Shown one piece after another: positions 8,543-64,000 of a stretch of 64,000 nucleotides of DNA (positions are counted from its first letter, which is position 1; the number at the start of each line of letters is the position of its first letter). The stretch is from Tetrahymena thermophila SB210 (taxonomy: Eukaryota; Ciliophora; Oligohymenophorea; Hymenostomatida; Tetrahymenidae): NCBI RefSeq assembly GCF_000189635.1, contig NW_002476250.1, forward strand, positions 525,221 to 589,220, read 5' to 3'. The position numbers were made by a program, and so were the translations under genes. The notes under the pieces were generated by a model. It was not told the origin of the DNA, did no database searches, and was given only the letters and a program-made list of their open reading frames with translations.

Positions 8543-11500
8543 TCATGAATAGAAAAAATTTTAGTTGTTATTATTGTTGTTGTTGTTAGTATTACTATTT
8601 TTAATTAGTTTGTATATAGCATTTACATGAGATAAGCCTCCTTTGTTTAGGCAACGAAGAATATACTCTCGAGAGTATCCAAATCCTTCAATCTATCCAA
8701 TAATTTTTTCATCAAATTAATCACTAGATCCCGCGCTAGTTTGAATATCAAAATTCTATTAACAGTCTAATTATTATTATTGCTATTGCTTATAATGAAG
8801 CTATTTATTCTCAATACCTTCTGGAATTTAATAGCCTCTCATCCAAGCAGAGTTGGCTATTCCTTCAAGATTTATTCTTTCCTTCACTTTTAATTTAAGT
8901 ATCTTTTGGAGCAGGTCTTGTGCTTCTTGGGAAACGTTCGTTTCTCTCATCTCATCGAGAGGTAGTACACCGTTAAGTATGTTGCGATGCAATTCTGTCA
9001 AGTTATTACCTTTAAAAGGAACTTTTCCAAATAAGAGGATGTAAATTAACACTCCTAAGCTCCATAAATCACTACCAAATCCCTCGTAGCCTTTGTTAGC
9101 TATTATTTCTGGAGCAAGAAAGGCAGGAGTACCGCATTATTCCATCATCTTTTGGTCTTTTAATATAATTCTTGATATTCCAAAATCTATTATTTTTAAA
9201 TTTAGCTACGAATCAACAAGTATATTATCTAATTTAATGTCGCGATGCAGGACCATATTTCCATGGATATACCTTAAGCCGCTAATTATTTAGGTCAGCA
9301 TATAACGCACTTAATTTTCTGTGTATGGTTCACCATTACGCTCTTTCATCATTTTCATTAAATCTTAGCCTCTGAAATACTCAGTAACAATAAAGATGAG
9401 CTTTCTGTTTTCAAAGACTTCTAGGAGTTTAAGCACGTGTTTATGATTATTCAGTTTTTTTAGGATTTAGACTTCTTGCAGGACCCTCTTCTTTGCACTT
9501 TCACTTCTCAAAATCGATTTATCTATGAGTTTTATTGCAACAAATTTACCAGTAAGTAATTAAACAGCTAAGCATACTTTAGCAAATGCACCTTTTCCAA
9601 TTACATGCAAAACTTTATAGTATTCTTAGCTTGTAGATAAAGCTTTATTTTTTACCTTGAAAGTAGAGGTAATTTTCCTTATAAGCTTTTATCTTTCTTT
9701 TTTAAGTTCTTCAATATTTAAGTTTACTCCAAATACTTACTCTAAATTACTTTCAAAATTGTACTAATATTATGGTGTTATTGTGTTCGGTCTTTGTTAA
9801 TCTTAATTGCTAGCATGATGCTGTTTTTTAATATAAAAAATTTATATTAATTAAAAAAAAACTAATATTTATGTACCTAATGGATGGGTTAATTTATTTG
9901 AGTAAGCCCTTAGTCATGTAAGAAGTGCTGCTAAGTACCTTAAACTGGTATAGCTTTGCTACTGTTGTTGCTTTCATCTGTTTGACTATGAACTTCTAGC
10001 TCTTCTTCTTCATCTTCATTTTCAAAATCTTCTATATGGTTTTCCTCATCAAAATCTTCATCCTCTACATATTCCTCTTCTCTTTCTAAATCTTCGTGTT
10101 CTTATGCTTTATCTTTTTAAATCAAAATAGTTTTTAATTTTAATTTTTTTAATTCTATTAAAATATTACCAAAACTTGCATGCTAAGAATAGTTGTTTTC
10201 GGAAAATCTATTTTTATTAATTTAAGAAATTGATGGAGCATTTATTATTTGTGATTTTTTAATTTCGCTTTTAGTTGAGTTTTTGCTGTTTGCTTATGAG
10301 GAGAGTTAAGGAGAGAATGTCTACTTTTCTTGCTTTAAACTATTAATTTAAGGTGATATTTTTATTTTTTGTTATTGATTACTTGGGTCAATATGAGCAG
10401 AACCTCTATTTGATTTTTTATTTATAGTATGCTGCTATTATTGCTTTTGAAATGCATTTGAAGACGTATTCGGTTTGCTTAAATGGTTGTTAGAGGTACT
10501 TTAGAATTTGTATTTATTGGTAGAATTTTAAATACTAAACGACTTTGTATCAGTTCCTCCTGTGTGTTTATTAAGGATATTTATATTGTCAGAGGCATTT
10601 TTATTTTTATGAGTTGCTTTGGTCTTTTAATTTCTAGAAGAACTGATTTCTTATGAATCATTAAATCCTTCTAATATAAAATTACTAGAATTTTTTTTTT
10701 TACTATTTGTTTTACCATCCATATTTAACTAGACGTTACTTGATATTTTTATATTCTTTTTTAATCCTCCTCCCTAAATTTCACCATTAATACTAGAATT
10801 GAGATGTTAGCTTCCGTTCAAATTCCAATTGCTCTATGAATTATTCATTGATCTCATAACAGAAAATGATCCATATTTAGAATTAAATTTGGAATTATTT
10901 TAGAAAGATGTATTTTCCCAAGGCTTATCAGTATATCTAAAACTAAATCTTTTTGATGCAGATTAAGTAGATTTAGATGGAGTAAGGAGGTTATTATTTA
11001 AATTTATATGCTTAGTATTACTACTAATAGGGTTGCTTCCTGTGATATCACTACTTTTATTATTATGAGAAAGGATATTTCGCTTTTGATTGCTTACACT
11101 TCTTTAAAGAACACGTTATTATGATAAAATTTCTATCATGTTCAAATTACTGTTGTTTTGCCAATTCCCTTTTCTTGAACTTGTTCTTTTAATAGGGTCT
11201 TCTTCATCTTAAGATATTTATTAGTTGTCAGTTTGTTTATTTGTGCTTTCACTAACTTGTCCATCATTTGAGTTATTCATGTAATTGCAAAGATCTATAA
11301 TTAATTTTTTTGTATATTTTTCATTAAATTTATCAACAACTGTGAATCTCTTTTTTTAATCTTTTTTATCTTAGCTTTTGCTGCCTTAACTCCCAGTGCT
11401 ACTTTATCTCTTAGTGCCTGCAGAAAGTACTTTTTGTTAAAGTTCTTTTTGCTATTGTAAGTATTACTATTTTTATTGGTCATTTATCGGAAGTGCTTTG

Positions 11501-13765
11501 CCATAGTTCTATGAATATATTAATTGCTATTGAGGATTCTCCACTGCTCCCACATTCACGGAGGAATTTATATTTAATTATGAAGAAGCAAAGCTCCCTA
11601 AAACACTCCCACATTTAACACTTTAAATTAATTCAGCATTGGCTGAATTCTCACTATTAAGTACTGAAGGTCTTTTTTCTTTTAATTGATTTCTCCTTAT
11701 TTAAGAAGCTACTTTATAGTAGCTACTTTAAGAAACTTACTATTAATGTTATTAAGGTGTGGTATAATTATATGAAGAAGGACTATTCGAAGGTTTTGGT
11801 TATGCTTAAGTAAACTATTAATTATTATTTTAGTTACTATAATTATTTGAAGAAAGGTTTTTATCTCTGTTTTCAGGGGATTGACTCTCCTTGCAAGGTA
11901 ATTTTTTAATTGCATGAGAAGAAGAATTAGCAGCATTGTATAAGTAATTTGGTGATAAATAGTTGTGTTAAGTTTAACCAGTGTTTGATGATAAATTTAT
12001 GTTTGACTACAAATTATTTTGTTGATATCCTAGTTTACTAAAAGAAGGTGATGTTTATCCATAATTTTTTGAAGATTTAATATTATTAGGACTTTAAGAT
12101 CTATTTTTTTAAAGAACGATACTCTAAACTAGCTATTGCTAAGAAGGCAGCAACTATCCTTATTATTAAGTATTTCCTATGATAGTTAAAGCATTAGAAG
12201 AGGTCGAGACTCCATTCAGACTTTTTTAATTCTATGAATGTCTATTTGAATTTATTTTGTTGTGTTCTTGTTAATCGAAATTATTGTTTGCAAAACTATT
12301 TCCGACTTTTGTTGAATTTAAACCTAATCTACCAGGCGACTAGGCTGGTTAAATGAAATTTTTAGAATAAATATCATTTTATAGATTTAATTAATTTGGA
12401 TTTTTTATTTCAATTTTACCTGTATTTGATTATCCTGATATAGATTGTTTGTATGGAGTATTATTAGCTGTCACTGAAGTTTATTTATTGGAATAGCTAT
12501 AATCTTGCTTTTTTGATATAGAAGTGGGTGCAGGTGAAAAAGACTATGGTTAAATATTATTACTTTATAAGTTGTTGCTATTATTTTTTAAATTTTGCAA
12601 TATATTTTATTCATTATAATTCAAATTTTGATTGGTTGTCGTTTTTATTTGACTATTTTAATGCGAAGTTAGAGTTAAATCTTAGAAATTAAAATAATTA
12701 ACGTTAGTAATATTCGACATATCTTATGGAGTTATTATAGATAAATTTTCATTCGATGGTATTATTTATGGTCCCTAAGACTGTCCTAATATGGTATTGC
12801 TTGCTAAATTTGTATAGCTACTATCTAAACTAATCATGCCAACACCTGGACCTTGCCCTAGTACTTATGTTCTTGTATCAATAATTGTTTAATTATTACT
12901 GCTAGCTCCTTAGTTGCTAGAAAAAGTTTAAGATTGACTTTAGGCGTTATAAAGTAAATTTTAATTTTATTAGCCACCTTAAATGTTAGCGCTATTCGTA
13001 GAATTAATTTTTGATCCATTTGAGTTATTTACTCCAGCCATACTTACTTCTATTGAGGCTCTTTAATTATTTTATAATTGCTATTGACCTATATTTGAAA
13101 AAAAGGAGCTATTACCTTGTTAAGCAGACTATCCTATTGTTGAGTTAGAGCTATTAGGGCTTTTAACAAAATTTACTGAATTAGATGACCCTTGATTGAA
13201 ATTGTTGCTGCCCTATACGTTTTAGTTGCTAATACTAAAATTTGTATTACTTTATTGTACTAGTGGATTCTACGTATAACTCATTTATTGAGGTGTCTAA
13301 TTTAATTCATTTTTGACATTCAAACTATTATATTATGGTTGTTAACTTTATATGGCTTCATATTTTAAATTGCTTTCTCCTGGTTTCTGTAGTGCAGGGT
13401 TTGCTATTTAGCTATCTTTAGCACTTTAAAAGGAATATTATGCATTTATAGAAGGGTATTATTATTATTAAACAGGCGTTTGGTTGCTGTAAGAATTACC
13501 TCCTAAAACTAAATTGTTAGCTTTGCCAATATTAGGAGTTTTTAAATCATTTGGTGCTAACGATATTTAAACAGCTTAATTTGTTTACAGATTAAATGAA
13601 AGTATTGTATTTGGATTGATTCCAGAGTACATATCATTTGAATATCCTCCTTTTTATGGTGACTATAAGTTCTTCTTAAATTAATATTAAGGAAATAGCT
13701 ACGAAGTCTACTTGATAGACTAAGCCTCCTACCTATTTATTAAATTAAAATTTTAAAGCACTCAT
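8543..13765 (-). CDS. Giant N/Q-rich Ser/Thr protein kinase with UBA-like tail
   Basis: Predicted join 13765-13733, 13662-9877, 9820-8543, giving 1,698 aa; both introns (70 and 56 nt) are phase 0. Residues 1-1,270 are low-complexity and rich in Asn, Gln and Ser, ending in an acidic block near 1,190-1,235. The kinase domain (about 1,345-1,605) shows VIGKGAFAKV, VAIKLID, HRDIKLDN, DFGISR and APEII, so all catalytic residues are present and it should be active. After it comes a segment (FDEKIIGQIEGFGYSREYIL) resembling the UBA-like domain that follows the kinase in AMPK/MARK relatives. The kinase exon has no in-frame ATG before the glycine loop and is entered through a good acceptor (AAAAAACAG). 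That supports one fused gene rather than two. The very first exon (MSALKFQFNKQ) is less sure; an alternative start is the ATG at 13632. Confidence 0.8.
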
Positions 13766-17536: not shown

Positions 17537-18678
17537 ACTAAATTAAATATTCTATCTTTTGTAATTATAAATAACATCAACAATTTTTGTTGCTTAAAAA
17601 TTTATAGTTTTATTACTTACAAATATTTTTATATTAAAAACAATTTTAATTGTAAAATTATTTTTGTCGCCTGTTACTATTTATTTGTATTTTAAGCAAA
17701 TTTGAGCTTATAAAAGTATTGTATTGAAAATATATTCAGTATTTGGAACCTATTAAAGAAATGAAAATAAATGGAAAATTATGTCATTTCATTTTGGTTT
17801 TATTTTTTAACTTTCAAAAATATTCATAATAAAAATAATATTAATTGTTGAAATTATAAATTATTTTATTAGCTTGTTACTAATTCTTTGTAATTTTAAG
17901 CAAATTTAAGCTTTTTAAATTTATCTTGAAAATATATAACGTATTTGAATCATATTAAAGAAATGAAAATTATTGGAAAATGATATAATTTCATTTTTTA
18001 TTTTATTTTAATAATAATAATATTAAATACTGAAATTATAAATTATTTTATTAGCTTGTTACCAATTCTTATATTTTAAGAAATTTTAAGCTTTTAAAAT
18101 TTATCTTGAATATATAAAAAGTAAAAAAAGCCTATAAAAGTAATGAAAATTATTGGAAAATGATATAATTTCATTTTGGTTTTATTTTAATAAAAATAAT
18201 ATTAATTATTGAAATTATAAATTTTTTAGCAAATTGTTATTTGTTTTATAATTATCTTGAAAATAAATGAAGACTTTGAATTTTACTAATGAAATTAAAA
18301 TAAATTAAAAATGTTATTATTTGATTTATAAAATTATATATTATTTAGTTATATGATATGTAAAATTTGGAGCCAGTTTAACTAAAAGATAATTTTGCTT
18401 TTTTATGTAGCCTTAACTATTCCTTAACTCGAATGAATATATGACAGATAGATAGATAGATCCATAAAAAATAACTGGATCAAAAAAATTATTCTAACTA
18501 TCTATAGCTTTCACAAAATAAAAAAATACCATTATTCAAATAGTTCAGTGATTTTAAAACCCTAAAATTAATATACAGATTATTTTGTTATATTAATTTA
18601 ATTAGTAATTTACTATAATTATAAAGATAAAAAAAGCAGAAGAGATAATAAACTATAAGAGTTATATAAATTTTTAAA
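17537..18678. other. Intergenic with degenerate tandem repeats
   Basis: AT-rich spacer between two plus-strand genes. Most of it is a degenerate repeat of about 180 bp, listed separately. A GATA microsatellite lies near 18443-18463. I see no coding sequence. Confidence 0.65.
17640..18330. repeat. Degenerate tandem repeat, period about 180 bp
   Basis: A segment containing 'gaaattataaatt...ttagc..ttgtta' recurs at about 17849, 18031 and 18211. A second landmark, 'aatgaaaattattggaaa' followed by an 18-base identical extension, recurs near 17963 and 18143. A looser copy precedes them from 17640 and a partial one ends near 18330. The period is about 180 bp. The copies are AT-rich and have no reading frame. 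Confidence 0.8.
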
Positions 18679-21060
18679 ATGAAGTAAGCAGGTGGTAAAT
18701 TTAGAACAGAGTAGAAAATCAAAAACAATTGCCTAGAACAAAAGAGTAGAGAGGGTGTTATTCTCTGTTTTGCAAATGATCAAAAAACTGATGGCACTAA
18801 AGTATGTGACAACTGCATTTCGGATGTTAAATAAATTTAAATCAATAAAACAAAATTGCAAATTTCAAGAAATCTGCAAAATCTTCTTGATACAGAAGTT
18901 ATAAGACTATTTGATGCGTAACTTTCACTAATTACTTTTAAAATAATCCAATAAATATTTTATATAATTTTAGATTTGGCGCTAAATACGAAAAACTGTA
19001 TTCTGAGTTATGGTAAGATAATTTAAAAAATAGTCTCTAAAATAAATTGACTTTATTTATTTGAAAATATCCTAAAATAATTTTCCTAAATATATAGTTT
19101 ATCTGAGGTTTATACGATTAAAGTAAATTTGAAGTAAACATAATAATTAAAATTTCTTACAGTTCTTAAAATTCTCTTTAAATATAGAAAAAGCATACTT
19201 GAAGATTTTGAGCAATTAATATAGCAATTGATATGCTTGAAAGAATTAGAAATAACAGAAGAGTAAAAAATAACTTAATGCAATTAAGGTTAAATATTAT
19301 ATAAAATAATAGTCCAGAAGAATAGTTTGATGCTGAAACATTTCAGGTTTTATGCCAAATCTTATAAAAGCTTAATTTAGTTAGCAACGTAGATCTTCCA
19401 ATTTTGTAAGTTTTACATTTTTATTTTAATATCAAAAGATACTTTTATTATTGAAATAACACTTTAATTTAATTATAATTAATATAAAATTCAGTTCTAT
19501 TTTATGAAATACTTATTATTTTTCTTTAGCTAAAATTAGGATATTTAGAAAGTATAGTTTGAAAGAATGATTGTTAATCATATAGAAGAAATGCCTTTGA
19601 CAAAATTCTAAATTAATTTGAAGTAAGTCTAATTAAACTAAACTTCTCTTTAAAATTATTTTTATTATAGAACTAATAGAATATTAAGAGACAATAGTTT
19701 AATTGAGTTGTCGTAAGTCTTGTCAAGACATACATAGCTTGAAGATTTCGCAATTAACTTAGAGTAAAATACCTATTTTAAAGAAAAACCTTATTTTGAT
19801 AAAATAAATCAATAGAAATAATACAGCAATAGCCTAGTAAGGACTAACCGAAGTCGCTAATATTCTCAAAAATTAAAAAAAAATTTAATCAGTTGACATC
19901 AACTTTTTGTAAGTTTATTGTTTCCCAACATTAATACCAATAATATTAAATCTATTTTAATCTAAAAAAAGAAATAACCTCAGCTTTTAGGATTAGCAAC
20001 TAATTGATTTAGCAGAAGCACTTCATAAAAAAAATGATTTAAAATTTTTGAGTCTTAATTTTCAGTAATTTATTTAATGAAAGAAGTCAACTAAAATTTA
20101 TATCTATTTAATTTAGCAAAAATGATAATTTCACAGACAACTCTTTGTAAAAGCTCGCTGACAGTCTTGCTGAATTTACTAAAATAGAAAAACTTAAATT
20201 AGATTTCCAGTAATAAAATAAATAAAAATGAAAAAAAAATAATAAATTAACACATAATTTTAATTTTGAATATTAGCTATAATACCATCTTCTCCGATAA
20301 AGCTTTTTATAGTTTAACAAGTTCAATGAATAGAATGAAGGGTATTTAAGAAATGTTTTTAAATTTTTGCAAAAATAATACTTTAACTGATGAGTCATTA
20401 GCAAATCTATCAAGAGTACTTATTACAAAATAAAAGATTACACATCTCTACTTAAATTTCAAGTAATTTTAATAAAAATAAATCTACTTGTTTCTTATAA
20501 ATATTATTTACATTTAGTTACAATGAGCAATTTTAGTCTTAGTCTTTTACTGACCTTGGAGTAAGTATCGGATAAATGTCTGGATTGAAATATCTAAGTT
20601 TAGAATTTGAGTATACTTTTAAATTTATTTATTGAGATTAATTTCATAATCATTTTATTATCAAATACTCAAAGGAGAAGCAAGAACTTTGATGATTAAT
20701 CCATAGTTGACATGATCACAGGAATTAAAAGATAAGTCAATTTGAAACAAATATAATTTAATTTGAGGTAATTATTTTATATGTTTATATTAATTTAGAT
20801 TAAATTTTTGGGTAAAATTTAAGGTAAAATAACAACCTCTCTCAAACTTCTTTAAGAGAAATGGTACCTTGTTTCTCAAGCATGAAAAAGCTTAAAGACT
20901 TCACTCTTTACATTAAGTAATCAATTTTTGATTTATATTTAATTTTAATTATCAAATATTTTTATTAAGTAATGGGTATTACAAAGATGTAAAAGACTTT
21001 TTATCAAGATACCCTACTGATGAAAACAAAGAAGATGGAGAACATGAAGATTCTTCTTGA
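18679..21060 (+). CDS. Leucine-rich-repeat protein, one 93-nt exon per repeat
   Basis: Predicted exons: 18679-19012, 19163-19262, 19313-19405, 19530-19622, 19671-19763, 19816-19908, 19972-20064, 20117-20209, 20277-20462, 20518-20610, 20675-20767, 20824-20916 and 20970-21060; total 1,548 nt, 515 aa. The N-terminal exon begins MKQAGGKFRTEQKIKNN and has a few Cys (KVCDNCISD). Eleven 31-aa units follow, for example NNLSFQDQQLIDLAEALH continuing to LSLNF: a leucine-rich pattern with N.....D..L..L...L....L..L.L.F. Nine exons are exactly 93 nt and one is 186 nt, all bounded by phase-2 introns. The tail (GYYKDVKDFLSRYPTDEN) is acidic. LRRs usually bind proteins; no enzyme domain is seen. Exon 19816-19908 as read contains an in-frame TGA after an A9 run, so the copy may be damaged, wrongly read, or skip this exon. 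Confidence 0.75.
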
Positions 21061-22240
21061 ATCCTAAAAACTAATATTTCTAATAAAACAAATATTTTTA
21101 TCAATCAAAAAAATTTTCATTAAGTTATTTTATTCAAATATATAAAGAAGTAAATTCTATAATTTATATTTCTATGTTTCTTTAAATAAAAAATTTGAAA
21201 TATAATCAGCACTTTCACCACTAATTATTAGTAATATTTATTTTTCATTAAATCAAAATATTAATACTTTAGTTTTCAAAATGTACATTGTTCTTAATAA
21301 TAATCAAGCTACATCTACTTCGAACTAAAAATATTTACTAAAATAAAGTTTATGAGTAATGCTATAATTTACATTTATATGAATACTTAAATTAATTGTT
21401 GATATATAATTTAAATATTTACTATTTATTTATTATTTAATTTAATTAATTAATTTTTTATTGTATTTATTGTCATTTACAAATATGTAACATGGATTTG
21501 TGTTACAAAATATATATTTTTTCTTTTATTTTAATATATATATATAATTATAATTTCAATTTTCTGTGCTTTTGTGATCCTCACTTTCTTTTCTTCTATT
21601 GTTTTCTGGTAAAAGTTTTCATATTTTCATATGAATTTGTTCTTTTTGGTATTAATTAATTTTTTATTTATCCTTCATTAATATTTTAATTTTCAAAATT
21701 TACATTTTTACTTAATAAAGTCAATTTAATTCAATTTTCAAGCGAAAAAAATAATAATTACTTATTTAATGTGTGGAAATTATGCTATAATTTACATTAT
21801 AGCATATCTAAATATCAAAAGTTTGATTTATGATTTGCATAATTAACTATTTATTAACAATTTATTTATCCTTTACTAAATTTATAATTTCATAATTTAG
21901 TTTTCAAAATTTATATTTTACATTATAAAACCAAGTTAGTTCAACTTCGAACCAAAAATAATGATAAAGTAAATTTTTAAAGAAGATATATTTCTTTAAA
22001 AGTGCTCAAAATAATAGTGTATTTTAAAAGGATACTTATAAACCTTTACTATAATTGATATGTTAAATATTTGAAAAGAAAATCATTAAAAATCTTTTTT
22101 ATAATTTGATAATTTATATTATATTTTTATTTAAAATATCTATTTATGTTAGAATAAAGAGTGTGTACCTTATGTTTACATATAATTTTACAATAAAAGC
22201 TCTATTTAAATTTAGTTTGCTAGTTAAAATATTTGAAAAT
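21061..22240. other. Intergenic, convergent, with degenerate repeats
   Basis: AT-rich sequence between the LRR gene (+) and a coiled-coil gene (-). It contains three related segments (listed separately) and several TA-rich runs. I see no gene. Confidence 0.6.
21240..21985. repeat. Three degenerate copies of an AT-rich repeat
   Basis: 'ttttcaaaat.ta.att' followed by a stretch ending near 'ttcgaac.aaaaata' recurs at about 21272, 21692 and 21902. 'tgctataatttacat' is shared at 21360 and 21783. Copies are diverged and unevenly spaced. No reading frame is kept. Confidence 0.65.
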
Positions 22241-23020
22241 TCATTAAACTTATCTTAAAATTAACATTTCATCTAAAAAATTTTAATAACACTCAACTAA
22301 ATCTTTTGCTGTCTTAAATTTTATCTCGCTGTCCCAAAGATTTACTTCACATATAACTAAATACTGAGTGGTTTAATGATCAATCTTTTCTTAAAGCCTA
22401 TTAAAAATCAAAGTATTTTCATTTTTTTTAAATATGTCGATTTCTTCAAAAGAATTCCATTTTTGAGAAAAGTCGGACATCATTATTGAAAGATACTGGT
22501 TGCATTTTCTAAGGCATTCTGTTTTTAAGTGTACTATCATCTCTTCTTTTTTATTACTTTGTTCTCTAATACTTTTACGCTACTGCAAATCTTGAATGGA
22601 CAATCTTAATTTTTCACTCATTTGCAAACTATTTTTATTTATTCTATTTAGATTCTACTCATTTTCATTGTTTTCTTTATCTGACAAAGATTGAGATGAT
22701 GAAGTGTTGATGTATTTACTTCTTTCTTTTGAATTCGACTTATTTTATTTTTCATATTTCTCAAGCTTATGAATTAACTCCTTGTTTTATTTATCTTTTT
22801 CCTTTAACTATTTTTGCAGCTAAGCTATCTACTTTTAAAGCTCCTCGTTTGCTTTTTTAACCTATTATATGCTCCTTTTTAATAAATTTTAACAATATAA
22901 TACTTTTTCAACTAGAAAAATGAATATACATGCTCTGATATTATTAAAAATATTCACTGATATTATGTAGCTATCTTATTTAGGATTAATTTTTTTGTTA
23001 TCAAATTAATTATTTATTTT
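22241..23020 (-). CDS. Small coiled-coil protein (5' end not resolved)
   Basis: A clear coding frame ends at TGA 22243-22241. The middle (ANEELQKQIAQLQKQLKEKD) is a strong heptad-type coiled coil. A polar Ser/Asn-rich linker follows, then a more globular C-terminus (KCNQYLSIMMSDFSQKWNSF). No family is recognised. The frame stays open upstream to about 23150 but has no in-frame ATG before the coiled coil, so at least one 5' intron is expected. A possible tiny first exon (ATGAG, at 23225) with good splice sites lies upstream, but I could not connect all phases. The start given is where coding character fades. Confidence 0.65.
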
Positions 23021-23379
23021 TATCAAACATTAGAAATAAAATTAATAAAATAAGCTTAAATCTAGAAGATATTAACCAATAACATTTTGGTAGTTTATTT
23101 TAACATGTAAATAATTTAATAAAATTTTTATATAAAAACACTTCTTAAATATTCAGCAAAAATACTGTTTATTTAACTATCTATATTTATTTATTAATTC
23201 TTTTAATTTAAGCAAGTTACCTCATTATTTATTCTTAATTTATTGCTATATTCTATCAATAGAATATTAATAATAAGATTTTTTATTTATTTGTCATGAA
23301 CAAGATTTAAAGATACTTAGATTCTAATGTATTTTACTTTAATTAAATTATCATAAAGCAGACATACTTCATAAAAATT
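23021..23379. other. Divergent intergenic region
   Basis: AT-rich region between the coiled-coil gene (-) and the aldo/keto reductase (+). It may hold the unresolved 5' exon of the former. Nothing else is seen. Confidence 0.5.
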
Positions 23380-24270
23380 ATGGATACATAAAATAGCATT
23401 AAAAAATTAAATATTCCTTAAATAAATTTTAGAGAAGGTGGTTCTATACCTTTAATAGGTTTTGGAACTTATTTGATGAGAGGTTAAGAGTGTAAAAAGG
23501 CCGTTGAACATGCAATTTTATCCGGTTATACATAAATAGATACAGCTGCAATGTATGGAAATGAGTAAGATATAGCAGAAGTTATTCATTCAAAAAAATT
23601 AAATATATAAAGAGAAGATTTATTTATAACTTCTAAAGTTAATTACAATGAATAAGGATATGAAAATGCTAAAAAATCTGTTTAACAAATGCTTAAAAGA
23701 TTAAAAGTAAATTACTTAGATTGTGTTTTGATTCATTGGCCTGGTGTTAGCCATCTAGATGACGATGACCCTAAAAATGCCACTGTTAGAACAGAAACAT
23801 GGAAAGCATTGATAGAGTTAAAAAAGCAAGGAATAATCAAACATATAGGAGTGAGCAATTTCAATATAAATCATTTAGAACATTTAATCTCAAATAGTGA
23901 GTATGTTCCTGAAATGAATTAATTTGAAATCCATCCACTTTGCCATGATCTAAAATTAGTGAAATACTGCTAAGACAAAGGGATTATTGTTTAAGCTTAT
24001 TGCCCTTTAGCTCGTAATCATAAAAAAGTAATCACAAATAAACTTATATTAGAATTAGCAAATAAATATAAAAAATCTATTGCATAAATCTTGCTTAGAT
24101 GGGGATTTTAAAATAATTATGTCATTATACCAAAATCTAAAACGCCTAAATATATTGAAGAAAATTTGTAAATTCTTGATTTCTAATTTACTTAAGACGA
24201 AATGAATAAACTTAATTAGCTTAATTGCAATTTACATGTAGATTGGGATCCAATATGCATTAAATATTGA
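23380..24270 (+). CDS. Aldo/keto reductase
   Basis: A single-exon, 296-aa protein of the usual length for the family, a cytosolic NADPH-dependent carbonyl reductase with a TIM-barrel fold. The catalytic tetrad is visible: Asp and Tyr in IDTAAMYGNE, Lys in LFITSKVNY and His in CVLIHWPG. Also present are the N-terminal IPLIGFGTYLMRG, the cofactor-binding GVSNFN strand, the Gln/Glu-rich NQFEIHPL strand, and the C-terminal IIPKSKTPKYIEENLQI that binds the NADP phosphate. Its substrate cannot be deduced. The gene is intronless, unlike most neighbours. The ATG at 23380 is the first in frame after a very AT-rich leader, and the stop is TGA. Confidence 0.95.
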
Positions 24271-28360: not shown

Positions 28361-29242
28361 CTCTAATTACTAATATTCTTTTTTAATTATTAAATCTTAT
28401 TTTTTTAATAAAGATAATTAGTATCATTAATATTAACCGTAAAAATTAATAAATTAATTAAATAAAAGTAAAGAAACCAAAGGATATATTATTTTAATAG
28501 TGAAAGTAGAATTTGATTTTATGAAAACTTCTAAATGAGCCATTTAAAGGATTATAATTCCATATAATAAATGCAATACCTTGTTTAATTATCATTCTAA
28601 TAGTTTTTAAAATATAAATGTTATTTTCTCTATTTTAAATTGCAGAAAACATAATAAAAAATAAAATCAATCAATTCAGGGATTACTAATTGCTTTATTG
28701 TAAAAATGAAAAATGTTTTTAATATAATTTTCTAATTTTTAAAAAAAATGTTTAAATTTTAAAAAATCTTTACAAATTATTTAAAATATAAAATTTTTTA
28801 CTTTATCATAAAAATTAAAATAAAATAAAATTACAAATTTCATGCTAAAGAATAGGCTTTTGCTTTCAAATAAATATTTTTAGAAATTAAAACGTTAAAA
28901 TTTAAAAATGCTTTAAAAATTAAAGATTGGTATTTTTTATTAAATGAAAAAAATATAAATTAACACTAAATTCTTATAATTCGCTTTTTTTTCTGCGAAT
29001 ATTTGTTTTCTTAATGAAGATACTTTTTATTAATTGTTTAATAAATTAGTGGTTGTGTCTCTAATAATTGATATTAATAATAAAATTAAGAAATTACAAA
29101 TAGTTGCTAAGAAAGATAGAAATAGAAGTAATTCCTAAAACAATTTAGACAAATATAAGAAGATTTAATAATAGAAATTATTAAACGAAGTGTCTTAAAA
29201 ATTTGAATACCACTACCAATATAACAAATAAGGCAATATCTA
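28361..29242. other. Divergent intergenic region
   Basis: Upstream regions of the MGN-start gene (-) and the membrane-anchored kinase (+). It is AT-rich with A and T runs. No further gene is seen. Confidence 0.6.
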
Positions 29243-31691
29243 ATGTCAATAAGAGAAATGATGTATCAGGCAGAGGAAGATGATGAAGATAGAAGGGTGG
29301 CTGATTAAATGAAAAAATGCAAAGAAAAGATGATTAACGAAAAAAGAATGAAGCAAATAAATTAAACTTTTAAATAATAAAGAGAAAAAGCCTATTTTAA
29401 CCCAAATCAAGCTTAAAACTACGGAGTATTCTAATAAATGTAACCAGCTGGATATTATGAACCTAACAGCTAGCAAATCTTTTATCAAAATTACATTAAT
29501 TAGGAAATGATAAGACGTAAAATATCTAATATTTAACATAATCTTAATTTTTATTAATTTTAAAATATGATAGAATAATAATCTGAGGGCTACAACAATT
29601 ATGACTTAGCTATACCTTAAAGGCACATCTATGATTTTAATTAAGTGCCTCCTTTAAATTTAAATTTTGAGCAGATGCAACCACTACAACAAATGATGCA
29701 ATATTATTCAACCAATCTTAGCAACTCTCAGCTCCCTTATTAGCAGTAATAAAGAAATAACTCCCTTAATTCATATGAATATTAGAATATTTATAATCAT
29801 GATGAATCTACAATTAAAAAGCAGTAAAATTACTAATAATAATATACTATTTATGAGGATTTTGATAATGAGCAGGAGGAAGAAACTCAGGAATGTTATT
29901 TTTATGAAAATAAAAATATTTATTAATCTAAGTAAAAAAGTAACTATTACCCTACTTACTAAGATAACTACTCAGCATTTAAATAAATTAAAGATAATTT
30001 CAATAAAGAGAATTCCTTCTCATCAAAAAAATCTCCTTATCTTAGTGATTTGTAAAGAATAGAAGATTCGTTTAATAAAATAAATACTCCTTAAAAATTT
30101 TTTGCTACAGATAGAAGTAATTAACCTATCCTTTCAACTCCATCAGCAACTTAAAAAATTATTAATAATCTAAATAGTATTTAATTAACTCCTAGAAATG
30201 AAAAATATACTAATGCAAAACCTTAAGATGGATATAAATCCCATCAAACAAATATAACAAAATACAACAGTCTGTTTGAAAAAGAAACAATTATTGATTG
30301 TCAGTAAGATATAAGATAAAAGTACTAAAACTCTAACCAACAAAGCAAAAGTAGAATTTTTTAAGGGAAAAAAGAACAAAAATAGAGAGTTTAAGAGAGT
30401 AATTAAAAGTATGAAAATAATAACTAGAATAAATTTAATTTTGATTAATATGGTTTCTAGAAAAACGGTGAATATTAATCTCAATACAAAAGAGTGACTG
30501 AATATAAAAATGCTGCAATAAACTTTTCTTAGAACTAATTAATCACAATAAAGGACTACTAGTTTTCAATGAATAAAAAGATAGGATAAGGAGCTTTTAG
30601 TTAAGTATTTTTGGGGCATAAAAGATTAAATCCTAATTTTCCTGTTGCTGTAAAGATAATTGATTTGTAAAAGTAATCTAAATTTCAAGAAGAAATAGAA
30701 ATATGTCTCAAAATTAATGGAAATAAAAATATTCTCCGCATATATGATTATCATCTTGAGAAAAGTAATAATAAATGTTATTTATTCTTAGAATTTTGTG
30801 AAGGAGGAAACTTAGAAAGTATAAACAACACAATAACTAGGAGACAGGCAATAATTTACTTTAGATAAATTTTAGATGGAATGAAAGAGCTTCTGAGACA
30901 TAAAATTATTCATAGAGATATTAAACTTGAAAACATCTTAATTAATGAAGGATAGATTAAAATTAGTGATTTTGGACTTTCAAAGCAAGTTTAGAATAAT
31001 CTTTTAGATGTTAATAGCATCAAATGTGGTACACCATCAACTATGGCTCCAGAAATATTTTTTTCCCATACATCCTATCCTTCATACAACAACAAAGTAA
31101 TTTAAAATATTTTTTAATTTTATGTCTTTTTTGAAATTTTCGAAATTAATTCATTAACTATTTTTATTTTTAATATAGTGTGATGTGTGGTCTCTTGCTG
31201 TCATTTTGCATGAAATGTTTTACAAAGTACACCCATTTAATATGAATAAAGAAATGCTTAGAAAATTTTAAAGGATTCAGGTTGAACATAAATGTGATAT
31301 TGTAGAAGACTTTTTAAGCAAAAGCTTGGTTTATAATTAAAAAAAAAGAATGAGCTTAGAAGAGATTTTCAATCACAAAATTTACACAGCAGATATTTCA
31401 GAATTCAAATTGTAAGAAAATCAAGTTTATCTAGCCTAAGTAGCAGATAAGAAAAGTATTCTGCAGACTGAAACAATAAAATAAGTTTAAACATAATCTA
31501 AGGTTTTAAAGTCTGGTGAAAAAAAAGATTAAATCAAGTAAAATAAAAATGGTTCAATTCAAACTTTAAGTTTGATTAAATCAATAATATTTGAATCTTT
31601 TACTTAAAATAACTTTGGGCTTGCATTATTATTATTGATTGTGGTAGGGTTGATAATAGCAATAATTTTGCTTCCATTTTTTTCGAATTGA
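29243..31691 (+). CDS. Ser/Thr kinase with Q-rich N-terminus and C-terminal membrane anchor
   Basis: Exons 29243-31096 and 31179-31691 with one 82-nt phase-0 intron, giving 788 aa. An in-frame TGA 41 bases upstream makes the ATG at 29243 the first possible start. Residues 1-435 are charged, then Gln/Asn/Tyr-rich. The kinase domain (about 440-710) shows KKIGQGAFSQVFLG, VAVKIID, HRDIKLEN, DFGLSK and a TxxAPE loop, so it should be active; it looks closest to the ATG1/ULK-like and CAMK-like group. The last 25 or so residues form a single hydrophobic helix (LALLLLIVVGLIIAIILLPF) ending three residues before the stop. This is typical of a tail-anchored protein with the kinase in the cytosol. The membrane it enters cannot be told from sequence. 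Confidence 0.9.
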
Positions 31692-33149
31692 TTAACATGC
31701 AATAAACTTAACTTCTTTCTGAATATGATTTTTATTTCTAAAATAAATAATAATAAATATGTTTATTTTCCAATATTCAAATCAGTAAATTAATAACCAA
31801 AATCAATTTCAATTATATTATTTTGTTGTTTATATAGCCTATTTATTAAGAGTCTTCATATGTAATGTTTTTAATTTATTATAAAATTACATTTATGTTA
31901 TTATATACCTCAAATAATATTATTTAATCTTTAATATTTTTATTCTTTTTACATTTATGAGGATAAGAATATAGAAAAATAGAAAAACAAAGCATAAGCA
32001 TAATTAATTAATATATACTACTTAGTCTAGACAATCTAAGATTCTATTATATTTTTAAGTAACCAAAAATAATTTATTGATAGTCATCTCAAAAATAAAA
32101 ATTGATAATAATTATGCATGAGCTAAATATTAATAATGATGGCAAATCCACTTTTCTATGTCTATTATCATACTAGATTAATACCATCTATCTAATTAAA
32201 CTCTTTAATCATTTTAAATCTATTTTTACCCATTCTCATCTGATGCTCAATCTATTTTTTTTCCCATAAAAATACTTCTTTAAAATGTACATTTATTTCA
32301 TCAAAAAAATAGATTTATTATATAAAATTAAATTACAGATTAAAAATTTTTTCTGGGAATTTAGGCGTTAGTTTAGAACTATTTTTGTAAATACTATTTT
32401 AGATTTGATTTGGTTGGCTATTTATTAAATGTTTCATTTATAAAAAAAATCATTAATTAAGAGTTTTAATGATTGAAAACAAAGATTAAAAAATATTTGT
32501 AAAGGCTATGCAAATTTCAATTTAAAAATGATGCAAATAAATAATGTAAGAACTTCTTCTTTAGTGTATGCGAATTTAAGTGTTTCTCTGTAAAATCTCA
32601 ATACTGAGAGCTATAGTTGAGAGTAACGCTTTGGCTTTGACATGAATAAAATATGAACTTTTTTTACTTTTGCTATATTAAATAAGAAATAGAATATTGA
32701 TAGAAATAAACTATGTTGAATTAATTAATTTTATAATCTTGCTATTAATTAAAAAGAATAATTAACTTGTTATAAAGTATTCAATTAAAGTAAAACATAA
32801 ATATATATATCAAATAATAAAAGATAAATCAGAAGTTTCTAATTTATTTTAGAAAATTATGGCTATCTTATAACGGAATTAAATTGTGAAGATTCTAGAA
32901 GATTTCTATTTTTAATTTAAATTTACTTTTTTAATCTAAAATATTTTCAAAATCATATAGAAAAGGCATTTGATTATCTTTTTTTCGCTAATTGAATAAA
33001 AATTCTAATAATTTTAAAAGCCAAAATCCTTTATATGCTTAAATAAAAGCCCAAAAGCTATAAAAAAAATTAAAAAGAAAAATCAAAAAGAATTTTACTT
33101 TCAGATTTTTATAAAAAAATACAAAAAAGTCTAATTATAAAAACAAAAA
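31692..33149. other. Intergenic region
   Basis: 1.46 kb between the anchored kinase and the TPR/J protein, both on +. It contains one possible small minus-strand gene (listed separately). A mildly GC-richer stretch near 32560-32640 holds a short TCTC...GAGA hairpin of unknown meaning, about 500 bp before the co-chaperone start. Confidence 0.5.
32168..32437 (-). CDS. Possible small protein, 89 aa
   Basis: A minus-strand frame from ATG 32437 to TGA 32170-32168, with an in-frame TGA just upstream of the ATG. It begins MKHLINSQPNQIQNSIYKNS. The second half is charged (WEKKQIEHQMRMGKNRFKMI), unlike the Ile/Phe/Tyr/Asn-dominated translations of ciliate spacer DNA. No family is recognised. A chance open frame of this length is quite possible in this DNA, since TGA is the only stop, so it is listed with low confidence. 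Confidence 0.35.
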
Positions 33150-35053
33150 ATGGATATTGAAGAAGATAAAGTCAAGGCTGAAGAATTCAAAACCAAGGGT
33201 AACGAGCAATTCAAGAAAAAAGAATATGCTTCCGCAGTTGAAAGTTACACCAATGCCATAAGTACGAATCAACATATTTCCATCAATTTTTAAATTACAT
33301 ATTAATTATCTTTGTCATACAAAGAAAGAGCATTTGATTTTCTTTTTGAGCACATGAAAATCTTTTAGATAAATTAGTTAAAGATATCATATTCCAAATT
33401 AATTTATATTATTAATAAACAGGTTATGGAAAAAACGAAGCTAGTTATTATGGTAATAGAGCTGCTTGCTATTTAGCAATGGAAAAATACTAACTTTGTA
33501 TTAGTGATTGCAATAAAGCTTTGGAAATAGATTCCAATTTTGCAAAGGCTTATAGAAGAAAAGCCCTTTGTTAGATTTAAATGCTCTAGTTCGAAGATGC
33601 TTTATTTAACATCAGAAAAGGTATTTAAGCTGATAGCAAAGATGATAACTTAAAGCAAGATCTTTAAGACTGTGAAAGAGTAATTATTTATTTAAATTTT
33701 CAAATATAAAATACTAAATTTTGCTTATCTCCTAAATCAAATACTTAAAATTTTATTTTAATAGTTAAAAAAATAATATGAAAGATTCTTGAAGTATATG
33801 GAAGAAAACTCCTTCAATGATGCTATGTCTGAATTAAACTAAATTACCCAAAAGATTCCTAAAAACATAACACTACTTGTCAAAAAGGTTATGTGTCTTG
33901 CTATGAAGGGTTCAACAGAATAAGCTAGATAAATTTTAATTTAAATTTAAAACCATGAAGAAGTAAAGAATGACTTGTATTACCTTCAAGGTATTTGCGA
34001 ACTATACAGCGGAAAGACGTAATATTATTTACTTTTTATCAAAACAAATAAATTAAAGAATTTTTAAAGTGATAAAGCTAAGGTTCTTTTCAGATAAGGT
34101 ATGCAATTCGACCCAGATAATAAAAAATGCAGAGAAGCCCTTAAGAAAGCATAAAGAGTTGAAGAATTAAAGGAAAAGGGTAATGAAGCTATCAAGGGAA
34201 ATAATTTTGATGAATCAATTAAAATTTATGATGAAGCACTTTAAGTAGATCCTAATAATAGAAAATTAAACTCAGTCATCCTCTCAAACAGAGCTTTAGC
34301 TTATGTTAAAAAGAAAGAATATAAAAAAGCTCTTGAAGATGTTAACAAGTCTATTGATTTAGACGAAGCATACTTTAGAGCTTACCTTAGAAGAGCAGAT
34401 ATTAAAATGAAGATGGGAGATTTTGAATCAGCTATCTTCGATTACCAAAAAGTTAAAGAATTAGATGCTTCTTAAAATGTAGATTAACTCATTAAGGAAG
34501 CTAAAATTTAAGCTAAATAAGCTAAAAAGAAAGACTACTATAAAATTTTAGGTGTAGAAAGAGATGCCTCTGATAAAGAAATTACAAAGGCATACAGAAA
34601 ACTTGCCCTTAAATGGCATCCTGATAAAAATTAAGATAACAAAGTAATTTCAATTAAAAAGATATAAAAGACACAATTTTAATTTTAATTTTTTCAATTC
34701 AAAAGGAAGAAGCTGATAAAATTTTCAGAGACATCAATGAAGCTTATTAAGTTCTTAGTGACCCCGAAAAGAAAAGAATGTTTGACCAAGGTGTTGATCC
34801 TAATGACCATGAATAAGGTGGTATGCATGCAGGTAATTTATTTTTTACAATTTTAATTTCGATTTAAAACAAGTAAGATATTTAATATCTTTTTAATCAA
34901 TAATTAGATTTCAATCCTAACGATATCTTCAAAATGTTCTTCGGAGGCGGCGGTGGCGGCGGTTTTGATTTCGGAGGCGCTGGTTTCCCTGGTGGTGGTT
35001 TCAGTTAAGGAGGTAGAAACGGTTCCTAAGGTTTTACCTTCAGATTCGGTTGA
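33150..35053 (+). CDS. TPR and J-domain co-chaperone (DNAJC7-like)
   Basis: Six exons (33150-33261, 33423-33679, 33765-34018, 34070-34643, 34706-34832, 34908-35053) give 489 aa. TPR units start at residue 10 ([20 protein letters not shown], then [12 protein letters not shown]) and recur around 240-330 ([20 protein letters not shown], then [20 protein letters not shown]). A J domain follows ([13 protein letters not shown]... to [13 protein letters not shown]) with an intact HPD in LKWHPDKN, so it should stimulate Hsp70 ATPase. The C-terminus is a short Gly/Phe-rich tail. The order TPRs then J is that of DNAJC7/p58-type co-chaperones that hand clients between Hsp70 and Hsp90. Location is cytosolic, as there is no signal peptide. 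All intron phases join cleanly. Confidence 0.95.
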
Positions 35054-36226
35054 AAAAAGCTAAAATACTAAAATAAATTTATATTTATAATAAAAAAACT
35101 ATTAGAAAGAAAGAAATAGATTTCTAAATCATTTAAAAATAAATTATTAACATAATTATTTATATAAATCACATTTTAAAATTAATAAAAATGTATGTAT
35201 ATTTTGTAACTTAATTTGGTATTATGCTAGTCAATCAATCAACTAACTAATTAACTAAATAATCATCCTCATTTATAATTTCTTCTATTTAAATTTTATA
35301 TTATTTTAACTTATTTTAAATAAAATAACGTTTTTAATTAAGGCATTCATTCTCACTATAAATTAAAAAAAAAGATTTTATTTAACACTTTATATACAAA
35401 AAATTTTAAAGTATTTGCACTTTTTTATGCTTAAAATTTTATATATTTTAAAATCTAACTCAGGTTTAATTTGCATAAGCTATAAAATGAAAAATAAATT
35501 GTAGATCCTCATATATTAACACTTATTCCACTCCTCAATATTTTAAAAAATAATTATTTCATTGGTACCTTATTAAGGGTTAATAATAGGAATAAAGAAT
35601 GCCTTAAAATATGAAACTTTACTGTATATTGTGTTTTTTAGAATTAGTAACTAAAAATAATAATTTTATCAATTTAATAATAATAATTTTTAAAATATAA
35701 ATTTTAATTATTAATAGAAATTAATAATCATGAATAAAAAAATATCTATTTTTAAAATAAAATGCTTGATATTTGTATGTAAGTCTTCAAAAGTAAATAA
35801 ATATATATTCTATTTTGTTAAATTAAAAACTTAATGTTTTGTATAAAATATTAGACTAGTTATAAAAAATGCTATGATGGTAATTATAATTATAAAAATA
35901 ATTAAATCTTAGAGATAAATTACAAACTATCATTTTTATGAAATATAGTATAATTGAAATGATTAGACTAATATCATATTTAAACTTAAATAATATACCA
36001 ATTAGGTAATCAAATATTTATTTTTATTAACTTTAGGTATCACAAAAAATATTTTTTGTTTTAGGATAGCTTCTTTATATAAATTTCTTTAAAAATTATA
36101 TCAAACATTTTATTCTAATCTAAAAATAAATAAAAAATTATAGAAAATAAGATATTAATTGAATATTTTTCAATAAAATAAAACCTTTTCTTTGATTGAT
36201 ACAAAATAAAAACAAGTATTATGGTT
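35054..36226. other. Convergent intergenic region
   Basis: AT-rich 3' flanks of the co-chaperone and FKBP genes, with an AACT/CAAT-type stretch near 35235-35260. No gene is seen. Confidence 0.6.
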
Positions 36227-42626: not shown

Positions 42627-44039
42627 TCAGTCGATAAGAAGATCCCAAATACTGTACTTTTGTTAGAATTATAGGCTATTTTTAATTATTTTCTCATAGG
42701 AAGTCAATATTTGTAAAGTTTGTGATATTCTCAAGTATTTTTCACTTAGTAATTTGTAAATTGAATAGTAAATTTATCTCTTGCTTGTCAGAGAATAATC
42801 TACTTTTGTTGTTTCATCCTTCATTTAATAATATATGGAATTTATAATTATGTTATTATTTAAACCATTTAATATCATTTTTTGCATAAAGCTTTCAATT
42901 CTTTAAACAGGTATTTAAAATCCATGATCTAATACAAAACTTGCTATCAAGCTTCTATTTTTATTTTAAGTGTTTAAAATAGATTGTTCAAATACATCAA
43001 GGAAGCCTGTGTAATTTTGCTTTTGAAGATAAATCTTCATTATCTACTTATATGAACTATTGTAACTTTTGTCTTCAACTATTGATTTCTCAAAGCTTTA
43101 AAGTGCATTATCTAACTGATTAAGCTACAAATAGCATAAGCCTATATTGTAATATTCTATATTACACCTAATAAAATCTTTACCTTTGCTAGTATCCTTA
43201 AGTTTTTTTTCTATACCTGTCTTAATTGATTAAATAGCTTTCTCAAATTAACCTAAACCAAAAAGAGCATTTCCTGAATTTACGTGACCACTAAATTACT
43301 CAGAATCAATTTTAATAGACATTAATGCATATTTGTAAGATATCTCAAATTAATTTAATTCAAAGTAGCATTAGAAGTACAGCTAGTAGATGTCATAGAC
43401 TTACTGATCTTGAGTAAATTTAGCTTCGATTTACGTTATAATCTTCAAAGCTTCATTGACTTTGTTAAATGATAGTAAAAAATAAATATAAGTATAATAT
43501 AATTTGAATAATTCAGGATTTAATTCAATAGATCTCTTATAGTGATACTCTGCATTTTAAAAGTCTTTAATATCTTCATATGCTGTAGCTATGTTAAAAT
43601 GAGCTCGATAGTAATCTTCTTTTATCTTTAATACTTATTTTAGAATCTCTATATATTAATGTTTTTATTAGGGGTTTAGCTCTACTATAATACACGCTAG
43701 TGTGTTTAAAGCCTTATAATTTAATGGATTTACTTCTAAAGACCTTTTAATATATAACTCAGATTCTTTAAACTTGAATTCTTAAAAAAGACCAAGGCCT
43801 ATAAAAAACATAATTTCTGAACTATTATTAAAACAATCATTTCCTAATGGAGTGACATATTTTTCAAGGAAGTCTTTATATTCAGATTTCAAATCAAGCT
43901 CATAATAAACCTAAGAAAGCCTCTCTATTACTCCTACTTTCTCTTTTAATTAATCTATTTTCGCTTCCTTGAGCTAATTTTCTAATATTTACTTCTCTTG
44001 TTACAACTTTCTATTTTCAATTTCGTCGTTCTTTAGCAT
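42627..44039 (-). CDS. Tetratricopeptide-repeat protein
   Basis: Single exon, 470 aa, from ATG 44039 to TGA 42629-42627. The first 35 residues are a Lys/Glu/Gln coiled coil (MLKNDEIENRKLQQEKQILE). At least six TPR-like helical hairpins follow, among them YRAHFNIATAYEDIKDFQNA (with YHYKRSIELNPE after it), SGHVNSGNALFGLGQFEKAI and EYYNIGLCYLQLNQLDNALQ, with the TPR pattern W/Y-G-Y-A-A-P. TPRs mediate protein-protein contacts; no partner can be inferred. The frame stays open upstream of the ATG into very A-rich sequence without another ATG, so 44039 is preferred. No signal peptide or membrane segment is seen. Confidence 0.9.
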
Positions 44040-45242
44040 CTTCTTTTACTTATTTTTTTTGATTCTGACTTTTGATAGTTTAGTTACTAATCAAACAAAT
44101 TTTGATTGATCTTTCTTAATTAAATAGAGTAGTATTAATTTACTTATTATTTATTTAAGGTAAAAATTTAAATTTATTGTATTCAAAAAATAGTTTTTAT
44201 AGAATAAAATACAAAGATTTTTTGATAGTATTTAATCAAATATAATTTTATAATTTACAATTAAAAAAGAAAAATAAGATAAATTAATTTTATTGATATT
44301 TCAACTATTTATTTTTATAAATAATATAATAGAAAATTAATAAAAAACATTTTGCTCAATATTTTAACAAAAAGATATAATACATAGATATATAGAGATA
44401 ATAAATATTAAATACTTCAAGGATAGACGACCAAGTAAAAACTTAAATCTAATATTCACTAATTAAGAAAGAAAAGTAAGAAAAACAAATTTAAATTATT
44501 ATTTAGCATAAGTAAATATTCGAAAATAATTAAAAATTGTTGATAATATAACAAAAACTTGAATAAATATTTTAAATATCAATTATTCCATCATATTTAT
44601 GTAAATAGATTATATATTTTAATTAATATACCTTTGTAATTTAGAAGTAAAAAACCTTTATCTGAAATATATAATCTAAAAAATAAAGGGTTTTATTTTA
44701 TAACATTGAATTAAAACATTTTTTTCAGTATTTTTCTCTATCTTTTTTATTACTTTCTTTTAATTATTTATTTGATTTTTTCTAATTTTGTATATTTAAA
44801 AAAATTTTAAATTAATACTTTTTTTGTTGATAAATAATACTGTAAAAGTATTTACTTTTATCATAATACAGAATGATTAAAAGCATTAAACTTTCCATTT
44901 CAAGAAACAAATTTTTGATAATTTTTGAAATTAAAAAAATGATTAAATACATAAATTTTCTGTTATGATTGTATTATTATTATAATTGATAGAGAAAAAA
45001 GATTATATATTTATTTTAAAAATTTATAAAATGATGTTTTACCATAAATGAGTAGATATTTTAATTATTTTTTACAAATCTTATTTATATATTAATAATA
45101 AAATAAATTGGATTTAAATCATTAAAAATAATAAAATTTATTTTTAATTTGATTTGCACATAAATAAATTAATCAATAAAGTTCTATTTTTAAATGTATT
45201 TTTCTCTTACTGTATTACTGTAGTGAATTCATCTTTTTTGTC
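44040..45242. other. Intergenic spacer
   Basis: 1.2 kb of very AT-rich DNA with T and A runs between two minus-strand genes. No coding sequence is seen. Confidence 0.6.
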
Positions 45243-63946: not shown

Positions 63947-64000
63947 GGGGTTGGGGTTGGGGTTGGGGTTGGGGTTGGGGTTGGGGTTGGGGTTGGGGTT
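63947..64000 (+). repeat. Macronuclear telomere, nine GGGGTT repeats
   Basis: Nine perfect GGGGTT units run to the last base, with the G-rich strand pointing 5' to 3' toward the end, as expected for a right chromosome end. This is the Tetrahymena telomere sequence made by telomerase after developmental chromosome breakage. The junction reads TATTGT then GGGGTT. The true telomere may be longer than the window shows. Confidence 0.99.

Follow-up and report, generated by a model that had tools for sequence, protein, structure and literature searches.

A leucine-rich repeat gene of Tetrahymena thermophila predicted to carry an array of 93-nt phase-2 exons

Background

In the genes of ribonuclease inhibitor and of NLR proteins, exon modules encode the leucine-rich repeats (LRRs) with constant phase, and each exon (about 171 nt) carries two repeats of 28-29 residues. 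LRR arrays of equal phase-2 exons are known from thousands of genes in the genus Tetrahymena (Xiong et al. 2019, PMC6564038). According to the main text of that paper, an exon length of exactly 90 bp is the mark of these arrays and is taken as evidence for their clonal origin from one or few exons; LRR group III has nucleotide-level repeats (CRS-masked) and long introns near 257 bp, and one possible fused LRR exon pair, and no more, is reported for T. thermophila.

We analysed a window of 64,000 nt of T. thermophila SB210 (contig NW_002476250.1, positions 525,221 to 589,220), which closes with GGGGTT telomere repeats (63947-64000) at the end of the 589-kb contig; because of these repeats, the contig is regarded as a macronuclear chromosome. 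The telomerase RNA encoded in the genome does not differ from that of T. thermophila. About 43 kb from the telomere repeats lies a predicted LRR gene (hereafter, the window gene), which shares the ribonuclease-inhibitor-like (RI-like) repeat with ribonuclease inhibitor and the NLR proteins but encodes one 31-residue unit per exon. As in groups II and III of Xiong et al., insofar as the main text describes them, equal exons stand in tandem (at least three consecutive exons with phase 2 on both sides), each exon encodes one LRR, and the units are cut at the same place; the short introns are shared with group II. The window gene differs from both groups in the exon length, which is 93 nt instead of exactly 90 (one more loop codon), and in the unit signature (F.D.SL..L in the window gene and IGDEGA..L in the 90-bp arrays). 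From group III it also departs in the nucleotide identity of the exons (42%) and in the length of the introns (48-124 nt). Under the rule in the main text of PMC6564038, a gene with neither a 90-bp exon nor CRS, such as this one, would be assigned to the old group I, or missed. No paper on 93-bp LRR exons in Tetrahymena was found, and the term is absent from the main text of PMC6564038. The exon-array design is known, and the 93-nt version alone looks new. An earlier note on this DNA had called the arrangement unusual in a compact ciliate genome, which was wrong: equal phase-2 LRR exon arrays are described in the main text of PMC6564038 as a hallmark of Tetrahymena, and 90-nt arrays are present in the same T. 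thermophila genome (L041, L048, L071 with 13 exons, and L072 with 18 exons).

Structure of the predicted gene

The gene model was re-derived from the DNA under the ciliate code (code 6). It runs on the plus strand from the ATG at 18679 to the TGA at 21060 and consists of 15 exons and 14 introns; splicing at these boundaries is predicted from the sequence. TAA and TAG account for 30 of the 42 glutamine codons, and the frame is open under the ciliate code. The GC content is 0.28 in the exons and 0.14 in the introns, whose median length is 55.5 nt. The phase-2 introns that the earlier note had seen in the array were borne out, and the rule is wider than the note said, as all 14 introns, inside and outside the array alike, are of phase 2. 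The internal exons 5-14 comprise nine exons of 93 nt and one of 186 nt (in order, six consecutive 93-nt exons, the 186-nt exon, and three 93-nt exons), which together encode eleven 31-residue units. Thus, the ten exons of exactly 93 nt claimed previously are nine plus one of double length, although the coordinates and lengths stood; one 31-residue leucine-rich unit per exon with a constant cut was also a correct description, with the 186-nt exon carrying two units. The exons are as follows.

18679..18917, plus strand: exon 1, N-terminal 80 residues with four cysteines (C-x11-C-x12-C-x2-C), without a family match
18974..19012, plus strand: exon 2, 39 nt, putative portion of a degenerate leading repeat
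19098..19133, plus strand: exon 3, 36 nt, putative remainder of the leading repeat of exon 2 (39 + 36 = 75 nt)
19188..19262, plus strand: exon 4, 75 nt, putative shortened LRR-like unit with the end LKELEIT
19313..19405, plus strand: LRR unit 1, 93-nt exon
19530..19622, plus strand: LRR unit 2, 93-nt exon, the least typical (H at column 17), missed by the strict core scan
19671..19763, plus strand: LRR unit 3, 93-nt exon; another in-frame acceptor gives 84 nt; internal GTAAG at 19713
19816..19908, plus strand: LRR unit 4, 93-nt exon
19972..20064, plus strand: LRR unit 5, 93-nt exon; another in-frame acceptor gives 81 nt
20117..20209, plus strand: LRR unit 6, 93-nt exon
20277..20462, plus strand: LRR units 7 and 8 joined in a single 186-nt exon
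20518..20610, plus strand: LRR unit 9, 93-nt exon
20675..20767, plus strand: LRR unit 10, 93-nt exon; tandem in-frame acceptors at AAGGAGAAG give 93, 90 or 87 nt
20824..20916, plus strand: LRR unit 11, 93-nt exon
20970..21060, plus strand: exon 15, acidic C-terminal tail with the TGA stop

Note that further in-frame acceptors lie near three of the nine 93-nt exons (those starting at 19671, 19972 and 20675); because of these and of the internal GTAAG, the lengths of the three exons are partly a choice. None of exons 5-14 is of 90 nt in the model, and one is readable as 90. For the N-terminal part of the protein, a 500-aa search with 50 candidates scored gave its own place as the sole match. The 186-nt exon is a candidate for a further fused LRR pair, arisen by precise intron loss or from an intron that was never gained. 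An open double unit, of 180 nt, is also found in L046 (C205).

Chains of equal exons were searched for in 18601-21100 with the following rule: exons were equal, open, bounded by AG and GTA, and of single or double length, and 25 exon lengths were considered. The longest chain had 11 units at 93 nt, as against at most 6 at the 24 other lengths; in the printed 11-unit chain, the last member is a spurious double exon tied with the true one. Among 300 dinucleotide shuffles, none reached 11 units, and the maximum over the 25 lengths was 9 (once) and was 3 or 4 in 230 of them. With single-length exons alone, the plus strand of the window gave a chain of 6 at 93 nt and of at most 3 at other lengths; when an LRR filter was added, the chain in the window gene was of nine exons at 93 nt. 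The pattern TTTAG-N-GTAAG was counted genome-wide (391 for N = 93 against 410 for the control, and 472 for N = 90 against 406). However, these counts are unusable as a test, because the first ~100 of the 472 places at N = 90 include, on C24 and C73, a group of mutually similar copies that were judged by eye to be non-LRR, and because 19530-19622 is the sole exon among the nine of 93 nt with both flanks.

Repeat units

The unit consensus is xNxxFxDxSLxxLxxxLxxxxxLxxxxLNFx, and columns 5, 10, 13, 23, 26, 28 and 30 are occupied by L, I, V, M or F in all eleven units. The alignment of the units to each other, which the earlier note had proposed, gave a sum-of-pairs score of 1230 in register, whereas random rotations gave a mean of -1232 (s.d. 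101). The divergence that the note had seen among exons and among introns was confirmed: the mean identity of the units is 19% for amino acids and 42% for nucleotides, and the introns vary in length and have no common sequence above the shuffled level.

The protein had no LRR match in Pfam or NCBIfam, and phmmer with the whole protein against PDB gave no result. A profile was then built from segments of two units each, of which eight came from the window gene and three from the C244 array described below, and was compared with PDB. The best match was 4r5d, named leucine rich repeat protein (whole-sequence E-value, 6e-7); ribonuclease inhibitor was also matched (best, 3e-4), as were, more weakly, NLR chains and LRRC34, and a few non-LRR labels appeared at E-values of 0.015 and weaker. 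L015, a relative without introns between units, matched LRR chains in a plain phmmer search (best, 4e-8). On the basis of the profile matches and of this match of L015, we read the units as RI-like LRRs of 31 residues. They carry the LxxLxL motif and are related by profile to solved LRRs, the combination by which the LRR superfamily is recognized, while the Pfam models miss them. A 61-residue double unit submitted to AlphaFold as a single sequence was modelled as two helices (pLDDT, 70.8) and not as an LRR fold, a result that carries no weight either way. The product would probably bind a partner protein through its predicted LRR solenoid.

Survey of LRR exon lengths in the genome

LRR loci of the T. 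thermophila genome were chosen by similarity to queries (seven regions from 77 candidate places); out of nine additional places, six were examined and C81, C78 and C309 were left out. In the strict core scan of the sampled loci outside the window gene, 131 of the 138 LRR exons had the 90-nt acceptor and none had the 93-nt acceptor; in the window gene, the acceptor was found 13 nt before the core in eight of nine cases, and the exception is the second unit within the double exon. One more core elsewhere in the window, outside the 138, has a donor but no acceptor. The donor is situated 2 nt after the core in 90-nt and 93-nt exons alike, while the acceptor offset is 10 nt in the former and 13 nt in the latter. 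Because the donor place is common and the acceptor is shifted, a 93-nt exon corresponds to a 90-nt exon plus one loop codon after the acceptor.

Some exons that the strict filter dropped were seen by a looser scan, among them a single 93-nt exon of L071 and a pair of them in L073. Counting exons whose donor occupies the standard place, the looser scan yielded 168 at 90 nt and 12 at 93 nt; the latter were distributed over C244 (7), L073 (3), L071 (1) and L072 (1), of which that of L072 is a spurious alternative and one of L073 is ambiguous (90 or 93 nt). The paralogues L071 and L072 lie on C91 at a distance of 20 kb, and their eight paired exons are 78-90% identical in nucleotides. In one pair, the exons are of 93 and 90 nt, differ by one loop codon (NNYVISSLGA and NNNISSLGA), and are 90% identical over the last 88 nt. 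L073 (C266:14500-17739) is an LRR array in which 90-nt and 93-nt phase-2 exons are mixed. In total, the length is clearly 93 nt in three of the 41 exons of these three diverged 90-nt arrays (one overlapping noise row of L072 was omitted from the count, and one exon of L073 is ambiguous). Two 105-nt phase-2 exons, which encode 35-residue units starting with WGY, were noticed in the LRR gene of L079 with L085/L086 (C412:13001-19500) and make a third exon-length class; their donor is placed 5 nt after the core in place of the usual 2 nt.

The search for 93-nt phase-2 paralogues, also proposed in the earlier note, found a second array among the sampled loci. C244 (L084, minus strand) has seven consecutive 93-nt phase-2 exons, two of which have an in-frame alternative of 84 nt. 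Upstream of the array on the same strand, a protein kinase domain was matched (PF00069; E-value, 2.8e-15; two joined pieces), and the domain and the array appear from their positions to form one gene. The unit signature is similar to that of the window gene, and the kinase domain takes the place of the cysteine-containing exon 1. Against the units of the window gene, the C244 units scored 21.4 (19.9 for the window units among themselves), young 90-nt exons 14.6, and diverged 90-nt loci 12.3-20.7 (five of six, 12.3-16.8). The score of 20.7 belongs to the 90-nt locus L081 and is level with that of C244 within error; the 93-nt genes therefore do not form a cleanly separate clade. Since C244 was met among the six extra places, more 93-nt arrays may exist, and since the loci were chosen by query similarity, the two uniform 93-nt genes are a lower bound and give no frequency.

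Origin of the exon array

We consider it probable that the window gene is an RI-like LRR array that was extended through tandem duplications of a founder exon of 93 nt together with its intron. Each exon would encode one LRR, with a phase-2 intron cutting directly after the beta-strand motif LxxLxLxF; compared with the 90-nt exons, the founder exon would have carried an extra codon in the loop that leads from the strand end to the next helix, and hence a length of 93 nt. Repeated duplication of exon plus intron, perhaps by unequal crossing over, would then have lengthened the array, and the 186-nt exon may reflect the loss of one intron. The growth by exon duplication that the earlier note had suggested is supported in this way by the uniform length and phase, the constant cut and the second 93-nt array. 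The uniform length of 93 nt in both the window gene and C244 fits copying from one founder exon. That a 90-nt array gained a codon ten times independently is not credible, because 93 nt is the length of 3 of 41 exons in the diverged 90-nt arrays (probability, 4e-12 under this rate), and this candidate was rejected. Adjacent units do not resemble each other significantly more than distant units do (the observed value was reached in 1412 of 5000 random orders). As excess likeness is absent both between neighbours and among the introns, the duplication would be old or scrambled and is not directly visible. The presence of uniform 93-nt arrays in no fewer than two genes points to an exon length that was set by the founder and then copied, as clonal duplication predicts; it also suggests that a 90-bp filter leads to an undercount of the Tetrahymena LRR array genes.

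We regard as rather unlikely, with roughly one chance in a handful, the more specific history in which the 93-nt arrays preserve the ancestral condition, with the window gene and C244 as survivors of an older wave. The first wave of exon arrays would have used a 93-nt exon corresponding to the 31-residue unit, the commonest one in the sampled T. thermophila LRR arrays without introns between units, and the 90-bp wave (thousands of genes) would have begun when one 93-nt exon lost the loop codon; the older wave would have been overlooked because of the 90-bp definition and because Pfam is blind to the repeats. Should 93 nt be the ancestral length, a comparison of species would provide a test of how a very large gene expansion originated.

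Alternative explanations

An intronless array of 31-residue LRRs could instead have gained introns, one in every unit and always at the same point; the equal length of the exons would then be that of the repeats. Among the sampled loci, arrays that lack introns between their units and have a spacing of 93 nt are common: the spacing was 93 nt in 81 of 152 cases, 90 in 60 and other in 11. Because intronless genes thus often have 31-residue units, the repeat length alone does not require exon duplication. The 152 spacings come from 20 printed arrays, of which thirteen were found by similarity to the window protein, favouring 31-residue units, four came from a 90-type query (all but one spacing of 90), and three are weak chains (L075/L076); within each of the pairs L023/L026, L018/L029 and L035/L036, the loci overlap or are neighbours and may be non-independent. 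The units of an open frame on C53 encoding a kinase and LRRs scored 21.9 against the window gene, as close as those of C244, and the 186-nt exon could be a boundary that was never split. However, intronless arrays mix lengths of 93, 90 and 87 nt. This is the case in L011, L015, L018, L021, L023 and L031, unlike the window gene, although, as in that gene, the 31-residue unit is the commonest in all of them but L015 (4 of 8). Eleven of eleven at 93 nt would have a probability of 0.001 at the overall rate (81/152) and of 0.02 if the rate is taken from ten 93-rich arrays (59/84), these rates being rough; the ten arrays leave out L026, L028 and L029, and the rates come from arrays found by query similarity. 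The length argument is moderate evidence and is not decisive. In addition, insertion would need about ten events of one phase at one site, and this twice (window gene and C244). We judge intron insertion to be improbable as the source of the array. The frame on C53 (L011, C53:119461-123141, minus strand) contains the kinase domain and the 31-residue LRR units in one uninterrupted frame; by eye, its catalytic motifs look degenerate, as in a pseudokinase.

The proposal that equal, phase-neutral exons are kept for the production of isoforms differing in repeat number seems less probable still. With all 14 introns of phase 2, any exon can be skipped, duplicated or exchanged without loss of frame, as the earlier note stated; the frame-neutrality of skipping follows from the symmetry of the exons and is a matter of geometry, not evidence of use, and exon duplication yields such symmetry without selection for skipping. 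Against the proposal, alternative splicing is reported for 5.2% of T. thermophila genes with 1,474 events, of which 139 are cassette events, fewer than the 832 of intron retention (PMC3274533). In its favour, a cross-species study reports that T. thermophila alone among non-animals resembles animals in a bias of skipped exons towards 3n lengths (p = 2.18e-5; PMC6142364). This bias may itself stem from many 90-nt or 93-nt exons, which is a suggestion only.

Finally, the idea that the equal exons are an artefact of picking sites in AT-rich DNA, where AG and GTA are common and additional in-frame acceptors exist for three of the nine 93-nt exons, was rejected as very improbable, as none of the 300 shuffles attained 11 units, the GC contents of exons and introns are two-fold apart, and acceptor and donor keep a constant distance from the LRR core in each of the eight 93-nt exons detected by the core scan.

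Other open reading frames in the window

A 1,417-codon open frame at 9508-13761 (minus strand) had no Pfam match at an E-value of 0.001. Of the 14 frames scanned in the window, an aldo/keto reductase-like frame at 22939-24270 (Pfam, 1.1e-49) follows the window gene most closely on the downstream side. Frames matching a protein kinase (29207-31183; 2.7e-37), TPR repeats (42627-44090, minus strand; 3.2e-22) and an RNase_T exonuclease (51936-53531; 3.8e-8) were also found. The neighbouring frames at 56232-57908 and 60708-62264 matched models of EML-type WD40 beta-propellers (second and first propeller, respectively) below the curated cut-off and are perhaps parts of EML-like genes. A large open frame at 32646-35957 combines TPR repeats with a DnaJ domain (Pfam TPR_1, 1.5e-22; DnaJ, 8e-16).
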